NCBI RefSeq assembly: GCF_030412785.1
Contig: NZ_CP125295.1
Coordinates: 5,704,001-5,768,000, forward strand
Source: Paraburkholderia sabiae
Lineage (GTDB): Bacteria > Pseudomonadota > Gammaproteobacteria > Burkholderiales > Burkholderiaceae
Direction: 5' to 3'
DNA: 64,000 nt
Shown: positions 51,349-55,205 of the stretch, piece after piece
Layout of the letters: each line of letters begins with the position of its first letter
Numbering within the stretch: the first letter of the stretch is position 1
Notes under the pieces: model-generated
What the model saw: the letters and a program-made list of their open reading frames with translations, nothing else
The model's database searches: none
What the model was told of the DNA's origin: nothing
Program-made: the position numbers and the translations under genes

Positions 51349-52746
51349 TCAAGCCCCGCTGTCGACCCTCACGCCCGCACGGATCGGCTCGACGATGACA
51401 GCGCTTTCCTTCGGCAGCGCCCATTCGAGCCACCGCGCGCGATGCAGCACCACCAGGCCGAACGCGAGCGCCGACAGCACGCCGAACGTCGCGAAGCCCA
51501 TCTGATAGCTGCCCGTGCCTTCCTTCGCGATGCCCATGATCACAGGCAGATAGAAGCCGCCGATACCCCCCGCCGCGCCGACGATGCCCGACATCAGACC
51601 CGTCTTGCCCTTCCAGCGTTGCGGCACGAGCTGGAACGTTGCGCCGTTGCCCAGACCGAAGCACACATACATCGCAATCAGCAACGCGATACCCGCCGAC
51701 ACCGGCGGCATCCACGCGGCGAACAGGAAGTCGCACAGCGAGATCGCCGCGAGCAGAATCACCAGCGCGCGCACGCCCGAAATACGATCCGCGACCAGCC
51801 CGCCCACAGGCCGCACCAGCGCACCGATACACGCCAGCAGCGACATGAAGAGACCCGCTTCGAGACGCGGCATCTGATACAGCGAAATCAGCAGCGTCGT
51901 CACATACGACGACATGCCGACAAAGCCGCCGAACGTGATGCTATAGACGAGCATCACGACCCACGTATCGCCCTCGACGAGCACGCTGCGATAGTGCTTC
52001 GGCAGCACGGCAATCGCGAGCAGCGCACCGAGCACGGGCAGCAGCAGCACGCCCGTCTTGCCCGCGCCGAACACGCCAGCATGCACGGCGACGACGAGCG
52101 CGACGAGACCCACGAGCGTTACGATGAAGCTGCGCAGCGCCTGCGCGCCGCTGCCCGTCTTTTGTCCGAGATCCTTCGCCCAGAAGAACAGCCCGACGGC
52201 GGCGAGACCCAGCAACGGCAGCGCGGCGCCCGCCGCTTTCGCCCAGCCGAAATGATCGGCGAGCGCCGGAAACATGAAGCCGTCCAGCACCGCGCCGATG
52301 TTGCCGGCAGCCGCGAGCCCGAGCACGAGACCCTGCACTTTCGGCGGATAGTTGCTACCTGCCATCGGCAGCGCAACGGCGAAGCTCGCGCCGCCGACAC
52401 CGAGGAAAACGCCGAGAATCAGCAGCAGCGTGTACGACGGCGTGCCGGGCATCAGCAGCAGCACGATCGACGGAATCGCCGACAGCGCGACGCCCATCAA
52501 CGCCACGCGCCGTCCGTCGCAAGCCTGATAGAGATTGCCGAGCGTCACGCGCAAAATCGCCGCACCGAGCACGGGCACCGCGACGAGAAAGCCCAGTTCC
52601 GCGGGCGACATCGCGATGCTCTTGTTGATGAACGGCGCGAGCGGCCCGAACATGACCCAGACCGTGAAGCCGGTATCGAAGTAGAGGAAGCACGCGAGCA
52701 GCGGGCGCCAGTTACCGCTCGCAAGCGAATTCAACAGGTTTTTCAT
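51349..52746 (-). CDS. narK: NarK-type nitrate/nitrite transporter (MFS, NNP family)
   Basis: This 465-residue protein has about twelve membrane helices. It begins with WRPLLACFLYFDTGFTVWVMFGPLAPF-type sequence characteristic of nitrate-nitrite porters, and includes the helix LGVGGASFAVALPMAGSNYPP with the glycine-rich nitrate signature. It imports nitrate or exports nitrite at the inner membrane. GGAGAAACTG precedes the ATG. The gene is followed by a terminator. Upstream lies an IS200/IS605-family element that separates it from a PilJ/NarX-box receptor gene on the same strand. Confidence 0.88.
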   Translation of the reverse strand: MKNLLNSLASGNWRPLLACFLYFDTGFTVWVMFGPLAPFINKSIAMSPAELGFLVAVPVLGAAILRVTLGNLYQACDGRRVALMGVALSAIPSIVLLLMPGTPSYTLLLILGVFLGVGGASFAVALPMAGSNYPPKVQGLVLGLAAAGNIGAVLDGFMFPALADHFGWAKAAGAALPLLGLAAVGLFFWAKDLGQKTGSGAQALRSFIVTLVGLVALVVAVHAGVFGAGKTGVLLLPVLGALLAIAVLPKHYRSVLVEGDTWVVMLVYSITFGGFVGMSSYVTTLLISLYQMPRLEAGLFMSLLACIGALVRPVGGLVADRISGVRALVILLAAISLCDFLFAAWMPPVSAGIALLIAMYVCFGLGNGATFQLVPQRWKGKTGLMSGIVGAAGGIGGFYLPVIMGIAKEGTGSYQMGFATFGVLSALAFGLVVLHRARWLEWALPKESAVIVEPIRAGVRVDSGA

Positions 52747-52859: not shown

Positions 52860-53993
52860 ATGAACGTTAAGCGTGCTTACCGATTCCGGTTCTACCCCAC
52901 ACCCGAGCAGGAAGCGACTCTTGCACGGACGTTCGGATGCGCACGCTTCATCTATAACCACATGCTCCGAGAACGGATGGAGGCGTGGACCGAGCGGCAA
53001 GAGCGCATGGGCTACCACGAAACCTCCGCCGCGTTGACAAAGCTAAAAAAGTCTGAGGAGCACAGCTGGCTAAAAGAGGTAAGCGCAGTTCCGGTGCAGC
53101 AGGCGCTCCGACATTTGCAGACAGCGTTCGCTAATTTTTTCGCGGCGCGCGCGAAGCACCCGACTTTCAGGCGAAAGGATGGTCCGCAGTCAGCCGAATA
53201 CACCGCCAGCGCTTTCAGGTGGGACGGCACGACGCTCAAATTGGCAAAGATGGACGAGCCGCTAGCGATTCGCTGGTCTCGCACAATCCCTAAGGGCGCA
53301 AAGGTAACGACGGTTACCGTGTCTCGAGACACTGCGGCCCGATACCACATTTCAATCCTATGCGACGACGTGGTAACCAAGCGTCCGCTCGCTGAAGGAA
53401 AGATCGGAGTCGATCTAGGACTTGCCCATTTCGCCGTCCTTTCTACAGGCGAAAAGATTGCCGCGCCGAATGCGTTTCGCAAGTACGAGGCGAAACTCGC
53501 AAAATTGTCGCGTCGTCTGGCTAAGAAGCAAAAGGACTCGGCCAATCGGAGGAAAGCGAGGCTGAAGGTCGCACGCATGCATGCCAAGGTGGCAAACTCA
53601 CGTTGTGATTTCCTGCATAAACTTTCAACCCGGCTGATAAACGAAAACCAAGTGATCGCCATCGAAAGTCTGTCTGTCAAGAACATGCTGAAGAACCGTT
53701 TTCTGTCGAAGTCCATCAGCGATGCAGGCTGGCACGAGTTCACACGGCAACTGGAGTACAAAGCGAAGTGGTATGGGCGAACACTGATCGATATCGAACG
53801 CTGGTATCCGTCTAGCAAGCGGTGCAGTGAGTGCGGCCATACCCGCGTCAGGATGCCGCTGAATATCCGCGAATGGACGTGCCTAGAGTGCAGGGCAGTC
53901 CACGATCGCGACGTCAACGCCGCGCGTAATGTTTTGGCCGCCGGGCTGGCGGTGTCAGCCCATGGAGAAAGCGTAAGTCCCATATCTCTTTGA
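52860..53993 (+). CDS. tnpB: TnpB RNA-guided nuclease of an IS200/IS605-family element
   Basis: This 377-residue protein has the split RuvC nuclease centre with Asp185 in GVDLGLAH, Glu269 in AIESLSVKN and Asp351 in HDRDVNAARN. Between the last two motifs it has a zinc finger with CSECG (Cys322, Cys325) and CLEC (Cys341, Cys344). The N-terminus AYRFRFYPTPEQE and FIYNHML are also typical. All catalytic residues are present, so it is likely active or recently active. TnpB enzymes are guided by an RNA made from the right end of their own element. Confidence 0.94.
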   Translation: MNVKRAYRFRFYPTPEQEATLARTFGCARFIYNHMLRERMEAWTERQERMGYHETSAALTKLKKSEEHSWLKEVSAVPVQQALRHLQTAFANFFAARAKHPTFRRKDGPQSAEYTASAFRWDGTTLKLAKMDEPLAIRWSRTIPKGAKVTTVTVSRDTAARYHISILCDDVVTKRPLAEGKIGVDLGLAHFAVLSTGEKIAAPNAFRKYEAKLAKLSRRLAKKQKDSANRRKARLKVARMHAKVANSRCDFLHKLSTRLINENQVIAIESLSVKNMLKNRFLSKSISDAGWHEFTRQLEYKAKWYGRTLIDIERWYPSSKRCSECGHTRVRMPLNIREWTCLECRAVHDRDVNAARNVLAAGLAVSAHGESVSPISL

Positions 53994-54079: not shown

Positions 54080-54817
54080 TTACTGCGTGACGCGAGGACT
54101 AGCGGACAGCTGCACTACGCGACGCGGCCGCTTCCGCGATAAATCCTTCCCAGAAGAAGGCGCATCCGCGTCGCGATCAACGACGCTATAAATCAGCGCG
54201 TCCATCTCCTTGATGATGTCGGCGAGCACTTGCGTGATGACGGCGAACTCACGGCCGAAAGAACCTGCACGCGCCGCAGAAATGCGCGCATTCAGCGCGA
54301 CGATGTTCGCCTGCATCGAAATGCCCGACAGCTGTTCCGCAATCGCGGCCTGACGGCGCTGCGTCGCCGCTTCGATGCCTCGCATTTCGTGCTGGTACGC
54401 GAGCGTGATCTCCTGCAACAGTTCGAGCAGCGGTGTTGCCTGTGCGACGAGCGCATCGACGTGCGTGCTGGCTGCGTCGTCACGCGCCTCGACACGGGCA
54501 ACCGTTTCGTCCGTCATCGCGACGAAGCGCTGCACGCGCTCGTCTGCCTTGCGCGTGCCGAAATAGAGCTGTTGCAATGCTTCGGAAAACACGCCGGGCA
54601 GATGATCGTCGCCGTGCACGAGCACGCGATGCGTCGACGCGAACGTCACGAGACATTCGCGCACGACGGCAAGCGCCGCTGCATCGCCGTGCGATGCGAG
54701 CACCACATGCAGCACGATGCGTTGCGACAGCATCCGCTGACGGCCGGACAGATTGATCAGTTCGCCGATCGTCTGGCCGGAGACTTCGATGCGTTGCGTG
54801 GTGATCTGCTCGTTCAT
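54080..54817 (-). CDS. Soluble PilJ/NarX-box receptor with minimal methyl-accepting signalling region
   Basis: This 245-residue protein has no membrane helix. Residues 15-120 form a PilJ-type N-terminal domain with GELINLSGRQRMLSQRI, close to the P-box by which NarX and NarQ bind nitrate. Residues about 150-215 hold a short methyl-accepting-type coiled coil with MQANIVALNARISAARAG and GREFAVITQVL. It may perceive nitrate or nitrite in the cytoplasm. The leader holds a predicted ANTAR-type attenuator. The ATG at 54817 fits the fold; the frame extends to 54946, but those bases form the terminator stem. It was probably joined to narK before the TnpB element inserted. Confidence 0.7.
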   Translation of the reverse strand: MNEQITTQRIEVSGQTIGELINLSGRQRMLSQRIVLHVVLASHGDAAALAVVRECLVTFASTHRVLVHGDDHLPGVFSEALQQLYFGTRKADERVQRFVAMTDETVARVEARDDAASTHVDALVAQATPLLELLQEITLAYQHEMRGIEAATQRRQAAIAEQLSGISMQANIVALNARISAARAGSFGREFAVITQVLADIIKEMDALIYSVVDRDADAPSSGKDLSRKRPRRVVQLSASPRVTQ

Positions 54818-54855
54818 AGCGCTGGATCGCGTCGGTGCGCGGGTTTCGGTTGCGC

Positions 54856-54935
54856 AAAAAAAAGCGTCCCGAAACGCTCGCGCGTCGCCCGATCTCATGG
54901 ATCGAACGCTCGTCGCGCGTTGCGTTTCGGGACGC
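54856..54935 (-). terminator. Leader terminator of the predicted attenuator
   Basis: On the minus strand GCGTCCCGAAACGC (54935-54922) pairs perfectly with GCGTTTCGGGACGC (54877-54864), with further internal pairing through CGCGCG on both sides. It is followed directly by eight Ts (54863-54856). It stops transcription before the PilJ-like gene unless the stem is prevented. Its 5' arm shares bases 54929-54935 with hairpin 2 and its loop. Confidence 0.85.
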
Positions 54936-54944
54936 CGTTGCCCC
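54929..54944 (-). promoter_or_regulatory. Predicted ANTAR target hairpin 2 (antiterminator)
   Basis: On the minus strand GGGGC (54944-54940), the loop AACGGC (54939-54934) and GTCCC (54933-54929) form a five-base-pair stem including one G-U pair. The loop has A at position 1 and G at position 4, as in known ANTAR sites. Its 3' arm is part of the terminator's 5' arm, so the two structures exclude each other. Confidence 0.75.
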
Positions 54945-54991
54945 ATCGGTGCGCCCGCATCGCGAGCGCGCCTGAAAAATTGTCGATACGT

Positions 54992-55011
54992 CGAAGCCGC
55001 CGTTGGCTTCG
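54992..55011 (-). promoter_or_regulatory. Predicted ANTAR target hairpin 1
   Basis: On the minus strand CGAAGCC (55011-55005) and GGCTTCG (54998-54992) form a perfect seven-base-pair stem around the loop AACGGC (55004-54999), which has A1 and G4. The loop sequence is the same as in hairpin 2, 47 bases further on. Confidence 0.78.
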
Positions 55012-55178
55012 CAGCGGATTAACGCAATAGGTATGCCATCGGCCTGTTTTGCGCCGCTGGATGCGTGTCGAAAGCGCGTTGATCGCGCGCGTGAAAACCG
55101 CGCAATCGCTTGATGGACAGGACTCGCGCGGCTCTACTATTTTTTTGACGCGCTACGTTCCAGCTACGTGATCAACCA

Positions 55179-55205
55179 ACAAAAAGCGCCCTTTTCAGGG
55201 CGCTT
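55179..55205 (-). terminator. Rho-independent terminator of the xylose transport operon
   Basis: On the minus strand AAGCGCCC (55205-55198) and GGGCGCTT (55191-55184) form an eight-base-pair stem followed by Ts (55185-55181). It lies about 80 bases past the xylH stop. Confidence 0.92.

Follow-up and report, generated by a model that had tools for sequence, protein, structure and literature searches.

A probable NasT-type antitermination leader under a sigma-54 promoter ahead of a PilJ-domain gene in Paraburkholderia sabiae

An ANTAR leader ahead of nitrate genes is an already known kind of device, and a paper on Azotobacter vinelandii nasAB reportedly describes one such case, a nas leader under NasT/NasS control. 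In Paracoccus, according to the part of the source used here, NasT binds the nas leader RNA after nitrate (PMC3795266). The ANTAR dual-hairpin motif was defined, in the excerpted text of its description, with a variable linker (PMC3369931). In the portions of the eut studies drawn on here, linkers measure 5-12 nt, a eutP linker of 3 or 14 nt sharply reduces induction, and the addition of 20 nt to an eut linker abolishes antitermination in vitro (PMC3369931, PMC8934654), while a survey of actinobacterial ANTAR systems gives, in its available text, a curation rule of 2-25 nt for the linker (PMC8164766).

Here we describe a leader on the minus strand of a 64,000-nucleotide stretch of the Paraburkholderia sabiae genome (contig NZ_CP125295.1; the whole stretch is called the window), and we hold with high confidence that it is a transcription-antitermination leader of the NasT type, transcribed from a sigma-54 promoter. 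A sequence-only reading of the same DNA had proposed ANTAR antitermination ahead of a PilJ-type gene; the sigma-54 promoter, the match to narK RNA, the 47-nt hairpin-bridged linker and the position of PilJ at the head of the operon in relatives go beyond it. Within the searches made, what is new is the interpretation of narK RNA as a sigma-54/NasT leader, a long linker bridged by a hairpin, and PilJ as the target, with functions that we infer.

Promoter, leader and genes of the unit

The features of the locus are as follows.
55023..55038, minus strand: sigma-54 (-24/-12) promoter element, TGGCAT-ACCTA-TTGCG, predicted from the sequence, the pattern in PilJ loci and the RF03032 consensus (5' part).
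54992..55011 (core 55010-54993), minus strand: hairpin P1, 7 bp, GAAGCC-AACGGC-GGCUUC, with an A1/G4 hexaloop at 55004-54999, from fold and covariation.
54948..54972, minus strand: linker (bridging) hairpin between P1 and P2, from the nascent RNA fold and comparison over 38 leaders.
54929..54944, minus strand: hairpin P2, the antiterminator, GGGGC-AACGGC-GUCCC, with an A1/G4 hexaloop at 54939-54934, from fold and covariation.
54864..54936, minus strand: intrinsic terminator stem-loop, its 5' arm including the P2 3' arm, from fold and covariation.
54856..54863, minus strand: U8 run of the terminator, from the sequence.
54080..54817, minus strand: PilJ-domain protein (245 aa) whose MCP-type signalling stretch is shortened, the first gene after the leader, from Pfam and alignment.
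52860..53993, plus strand: TnpB gene (IS200/IS605 type) between the PilJ and narK genes, from Pfam.
51349..52746, minus strand: narK2, a NarK-type nitrate/nitrite MFS transporter and probable second gene of the unit, from profile matches.

The terminator has its 5' end inside the P2 loop and its stem takes up the entire P2 3' arm, and by sequence and fold P2 and the terminator are mutually exclusive. Earlier claims on this anatomy stood: every coordinate given for two AACGGC hexaloop hairpins on the minus strand was right, the P2 3' arm does form the start of the terminator 5' arm, and eight Ts at 54856-54863, 38 bases before the ATG at 54817, were located to the base. Region 54818-55040 folds at -100.5 kcal/mol (z -2.76), with 1 of 200 shuffles equally or more stable. 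A pair of A1/G4 hexaloop hairpins is by itself unremarkable in this window, which contains 3 of them against a mean of 2.3 in dinucleotide shuffles (at least 3 in 205 of 500); when an overlapping terminator and a T-run are required as well, the window holds a single instance and none of the 500 shuffles has any.

A longer frame of 288 aa (54080-54946, minus strand) starts at ATG 54946 and runs in frame across P2 and the terminator. The leader would be hidden if an annotation chose this start; homologues align from about ATG 54817. Further upstream, between the xyl transport genes and the sigma-54 promoter, an inverted repeat with T5 (GCGCCCTGAAAAGGGCGC-TTTTT, about 55177-55205, minus strand) probably serves, judged by eye, as the xyl unit's terminator.

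The promoter element, read from 55038 to 55023, matches what we take to be the sigma-54 consensus, TGGCAY-N5-TTGC, with GG and GC 10 bases apart. Counted from the -12 element, transcription is predicted to start near 55012, right at P1. The genome encodes two RpoN (sigma-54) proteins over the family cut-off (G000:C1:383294-384778 and C1:2389506-2390942) and an NtrC above cut-off (627 bits). Upstream of the promoter, a search for a conserved NtrC site gave only scattered one-mismatch sites, and for this reason NtrC control is something that we only infer.

The PilJ-type gene seen earlier behind the leader holds up, as its product scores 42.9 bits for PF13675 (cut-off 26.6); PF00015, at 33.9 bits, falls just under its cut-off of 34.6. 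The protein has no obvious membrane segment by eye, and its structural model has a mean pLDDT of 80.9. The published nitrate N-box, as given in the part of the source consulted, reads [IVL]-[ND]-x-A-G-x-Q-R-M-L-[ST]-Q, and in McpN its arginine binds nitrate (PMC6381276). The window protein carries INLSGRQRMLSQ, which differs from this pattern at one residue, S for A, and has its N-box arginine at position 28; among the homologues the strict pattern is found in 9 of 21, and in 21 of 21 when A or S is allowed. For narK2, PF07690 is over its cut-off and TIGR00886 reaches 248.4 bits, under the cut-off of 311.7.

The window unit is PilJ-narK2, interrupted by the TnpB gene; in a near relative (L041), PilJ and narK are adjacent, 67 bp apart, with no TnpB between them. 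Since the order PilJ-narK-nirB-nasA-like is found in four relatives (L042, L043, L046, L049), and since in five other genomes a leader of this kind immediately precedes a narK2 relative, with PilJ absent, PilJ seems to have been added as the first gene of a presumed NasT-controlled unit. A soluble PilJ protein, apparently unstudied, would in this way be tied to nitrate assimilation in Burkholderiaceae. In Cupriavidus (L044, from 10620) and Ralstonia (L048, from 10755), a second PilJ-domain protein (PF13675) follows PilJ and replaces narK; it has a strict N-box and, by eye, a signal-peptide-like start.

Conservation of the leader, the narK RNA family and NasT

Among 200 genomes from the family, 31 encode a relative of the PilJ protein at E 1e-15 or better, and 30 loci, the window included, were opened for comparison of the leader. 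The sigma-54 pattern occurs in 28 of the 30, the exceptions being L011 (a near match by eye) and L039, and in the 27 loci having both pattern and hairpins 32-38 nt separate the promoter from the P1 loop. Both hairpins are present in 28 of the 30 (all except L021 and L039, the latter a distant PilJ relative at 40% identity), and the T-run terminator accompanies them in 26 of these loci (it is absent from L020 and L022). A further 21 PilJ loci from named organisms (L041-L061), which overlap the first set (e.g., L048, L049, L051), were also examined. The promoter element and both hairpins recur in 11 of 11 closer loci, from Paraburkholderia, 'Burkholderia' sp., Caballeronia, Trinickia, Cupriavidus and Ralstonia, and the leader is absent upstream of 10 of 10 more distant relatives in this set (30-42% identity). 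No T-run terminator was seen before the PilJ gene in L020, L022 and L051, which keep the promoter and both hairpins; control may act at another step there.

Alignment of 26 leaders shows covariation in both folds. P1 and P2 are 94.7% paired, with changes on both sides at 7 of 13 pairs, and the terminator is 96.1% paired, with such changes at 6 of 14; shifted controls reach pairing of only 31-53%, and the shuffle controls for covariation are inflated by kinship among the leaders. Alignment columns 125 and 126, common to P2 and the terminator, vary yet remain paired in both folds.

Rfam family RF03032 ('narK RNA'), an independent model, has its best match in the whole 9.9 Mb genome at the window site, with 30.9 bits (E 0.002), below the family's gathering score of 43.2 bits. 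Its consensus consists of GGCaCAgcucUUGCU (a sigma-54 element), a hairpin with an AACGGC loop, and then CGAC-AAAGAC-GUCG, which is a second A1/G4 hexaloop, unpaired in the Rfam structure line; in the alignment, the window site matches the promoter-like 5' part and the AACGGC-loop hairpin. Searches returned 5 matches in 200 genomes of the order (E 1e-5) and 6 in 369 genomes of the class (E 1e-4), 5 of the 11 over the gathering score, and all were opened. All 11 loci have TGGCAY-N6-NTGC, first and second hairpins with A1/G4 hexaloops and a T-run of at least 5, promoter and T-run being judged by eye and hairpins by script; the second hairpin has at least 4 bp in 10 loci and 3 bp in L164 (by eye).

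The genes behind these matches are narK-type (L210, L211), nirB-type (L160), nasA-type (L215) or NasS-like (L161-L164, L212-L214, with another reading frame intervening in L163), and 7 of the 11 loci (L161-L164, L210, L212, L213) include a nasT or ANTAR-domain match within their 3 kb. Because of the shared layout, the nas-type genes behind it and the nasT or ANTAR genes close by, we conclude that RF03032 probably represents the promoter and leader of NasT-controlled genes. For the narK RNA family this would mean a cognate protein and a likely mode of action, and part of its conserved sequence is suggested to be promoter DNA. None of the papers searched uses the names tried for this family.

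The genome itself holds one ANTAR protein (G000:C1:2808210), NasT-like, with receiver and ANTAR domains, on the same contig as the leader and about 2.9 Mb away; an NMT1_2 (NasS-like) gene lies directly behind its gene. The sequence-only reading had looked to a NasT-like regulator, with nasS-nasT to be sought in the genome, and to covarying stems among homologues. This single NasT-like protein beside a NasS-like gene, and the covariation of both hairpin stems and the terminator in the 26 aligned leaders, lend support to its proposal of ANTAR antitermination.

Lists compared by eye place all 31 genomes with a PilJ gene among the 143 of 200 having an ANTAR protein. A model of P1-linker-P2 built from 28 PilJ leaders and searched in the 200 family genomes (E 1e-4) gave 77 matches in 70 genomes. 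All 70 are, again by eye, among the 143 (7e-14, uncorrected), a co-occurrence confounded with genome size and kinship, as the 57 genomes without an ANTAR protein include many small ones. By our assignment, the matches comprise 29 PilJ leaders (28 of them used for the model), 1 leader before a PilJ remnant (L198) and 47 others, 24 of which lie 243-2299 bp from an ANTAR domain.

Ten of these 47 and L198 were opened, and the promoter element and both hairpins were found in 11 of 11. The 10 leaders precede narK2 relatives (L199, L201, L204, L205, L207), narK1-nirB (L200, L203, L208) or NasS-like genes (L202, L206); L203 has only a weak T-run, and that of L199 is interrupted. In L198 (G136, 999-1377) the leader is intact and the PilJ gene mostly missing; the stretch fetched behind the leader gave no narK, nirB or nasA match. 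On contig 2 of the P. sabiae genome, at about 1855219-1855325 (L129, L003), a second leader precedes narK1-nirB-nasA, with P1, P2 and the inverted repeat present and a poor T-run.

The long linker and the proposed mechanism

P1 and P2 are separated by 47 nt in the window; across the 28 PilJ leaders this linker ranges from 25 to 54 nt, and across the other 10 from 35 to 59 nt. The spacing in the window fits the variable-linker definition and fails the 2-25 nt rule, as both stand in the parts of the sources used (PMC3369931, PMC8164766), and because of its 47-nt linker the leader is filed as a variant rather than as a plain member of the ANTAR-target dual-hairpin class. Of the 38 Burkholderiaceae leaders, 29 have a perfect stem of at least 5 bp ending no more than 7 nt from P2, where shuffled linkers would give 10.3; the 38 are related by descent, and the count is not an independent one. 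In the Ralstonia leader L038, nearly all of the 25-nt linker is the bridging hairpin. Such a hairpin would shorten the path from P1 to P2. Since 22-28 nt of the window linker still remain unpaired with the hairpin folded out, NasT may perhaps merely be more linker-tolerant than EutV. The hand-over model of ANTAR antitermination, in its current form, has behind it a linker limit with which these natural leaders conflict. L202 (2264-2346) and L206 (reverse strand, 1336-1418), two leaders found immediately downstream of nasT and upstream of a NasS-like gene, carry a third hairpin with an A1/G4 hexaloop inside the linker.

When nitrogen is short, sigma-54 RNA polymerase, presumably activated by NtrC, would start near 55012, so that P1 forms the 5' end of the RNA. 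In the absence of nitrate, NasS would hold NasT, the terminator would replace P2, and transcription would stop at the U8 run before PilJ-narK2. With nitrate present, NasT would be freed, recruited at P1 and able to hold P2; the terminator would then be blocked and PilJ-narK2 transcribed. The hairpin in the 47-nt linker probably draws P1 and P2 together. Several points speak against this mechanism: the RF03032 score under the gathering level, the 47-nt linker, the lack of a conserved NtrC site, the three loci (L020, L022, L051) without a T-run terminator, the confounding of the ANTAR co-occurrence, the restriction of the PilJ gene to only 31 of the 200 family genomes, and the missing leader in all 10 of the more distant PilJ relatives.

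The best-surviving alternative, which we nevertheless consider improbable, is that the leader is NasT-controlled in general and largely inactive here, in a decaying unit. The TnpB gene splitting PilJ from narK2 in the window and not in L041, the main nas operon, which has a leader of its own on contig 2, and the leader retained with only a PilJ remnant in G136 (L198) could all be read in this way, and the strict linker limits of EutV, as reported in the excerpted sources (PMC3369931, PMC8934654), would make the long linker a poor NasT target. However, the window retains P1, P2, the terminator and U8 undamaged, linkers as a rule span 25-59 nt across the 38 leaders, and pairing is kept in both folds. 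Another RNA-binding protein or a small molecule might instead act at the switch, with NasT working elsewhere, and Rfam files RF03032 as a cis-regulatory RNA with no mechanism found there; this is very unlikely, given the single ANTAR protein in the genome, the A1/G4 loops that are kept, the nas genes behind the leaders and the nasT genes close by in many relatives. Just as implausible is a constitutive attenuator with a functional terminator, coincidental hexaloops and no ANTAR protein acting: A1/G4 hairpin pairs are common by chance in this window, but their combination with an overlapping terminator appeared in none of the 500 shuffles, loops and stems are conserved and covarying, and matches of the leader model lie beside nasT genes.

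The NasT-type antitermination leader is the preferred reading, and a wider and clearly more tentative picture can be drawn around it, which we regard as possible though doubtful. Burkholderiaceae NasT leaders may break the ANTAR spacing rule, with P1 and P2 up to 59 nt apart and joined by a bridging hairpin, which in some genomes would be a third A1/G4 hexaloop, with hand-over of NasT along three hairpins. The narK RNA would be the version of this sigma-54/NasT device that has a short linker, and the soluble PilJ protein an intracellular nitrate receptor feeding back on nitrate assimilation.

Comparison with known systems

The locus and narK RNA (RF03032) share the order of sigma-54 element, AACGGC hairpin and second A1/G4 hexaloop; the loop-to-loop distance is 22-46 nt in the RF03032 loci where it was measured, whereas that of the window is 65 nt. 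With the NasT/NasS nas leaders, as represented by Paracoccus denitrificans nasA in the portion of the source used (PMC3795266), the locus has in common the NasS-NasT pair, an ANTAR protein and a hairpin leader before nitrate-assimilation genes, but here a PilJ protein comes first and the 47-nt linker carries an extra hairpin. The EutV/eut leaders and the ANTAR dual-hairpin motif likewise contain two hairpins bearing A1/G4 hexaloops, the second of which (P2) overlaps the terminator (PMC3369931, in part), and differ in their much shorter linkers, 5-12 nt in the sections consulted (PMC3369931, PMC8934654). The Klebsiella NasR-nasF leader, according to the excerpts of PMC3369931 and PMC3795266, also combines nitrate, ANTAR and a leader terminator, ahead of a nitrate-assimilation operon. 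In Klebsiella, NasR is a single NIT-ANTAR protein, in contrast to the NasT-NasS pair found here. Finally, McpN of Pseudomonas aeruginosa is a PilJ-domain nitrate chemoreceptor that senses in the periplasm and whose transcript falls with nitrate; the PilJ protein of the window, unlike McpN, appears to be soluble, carries an MCP stretch of reduced length and would be expected to rise with nitrate.
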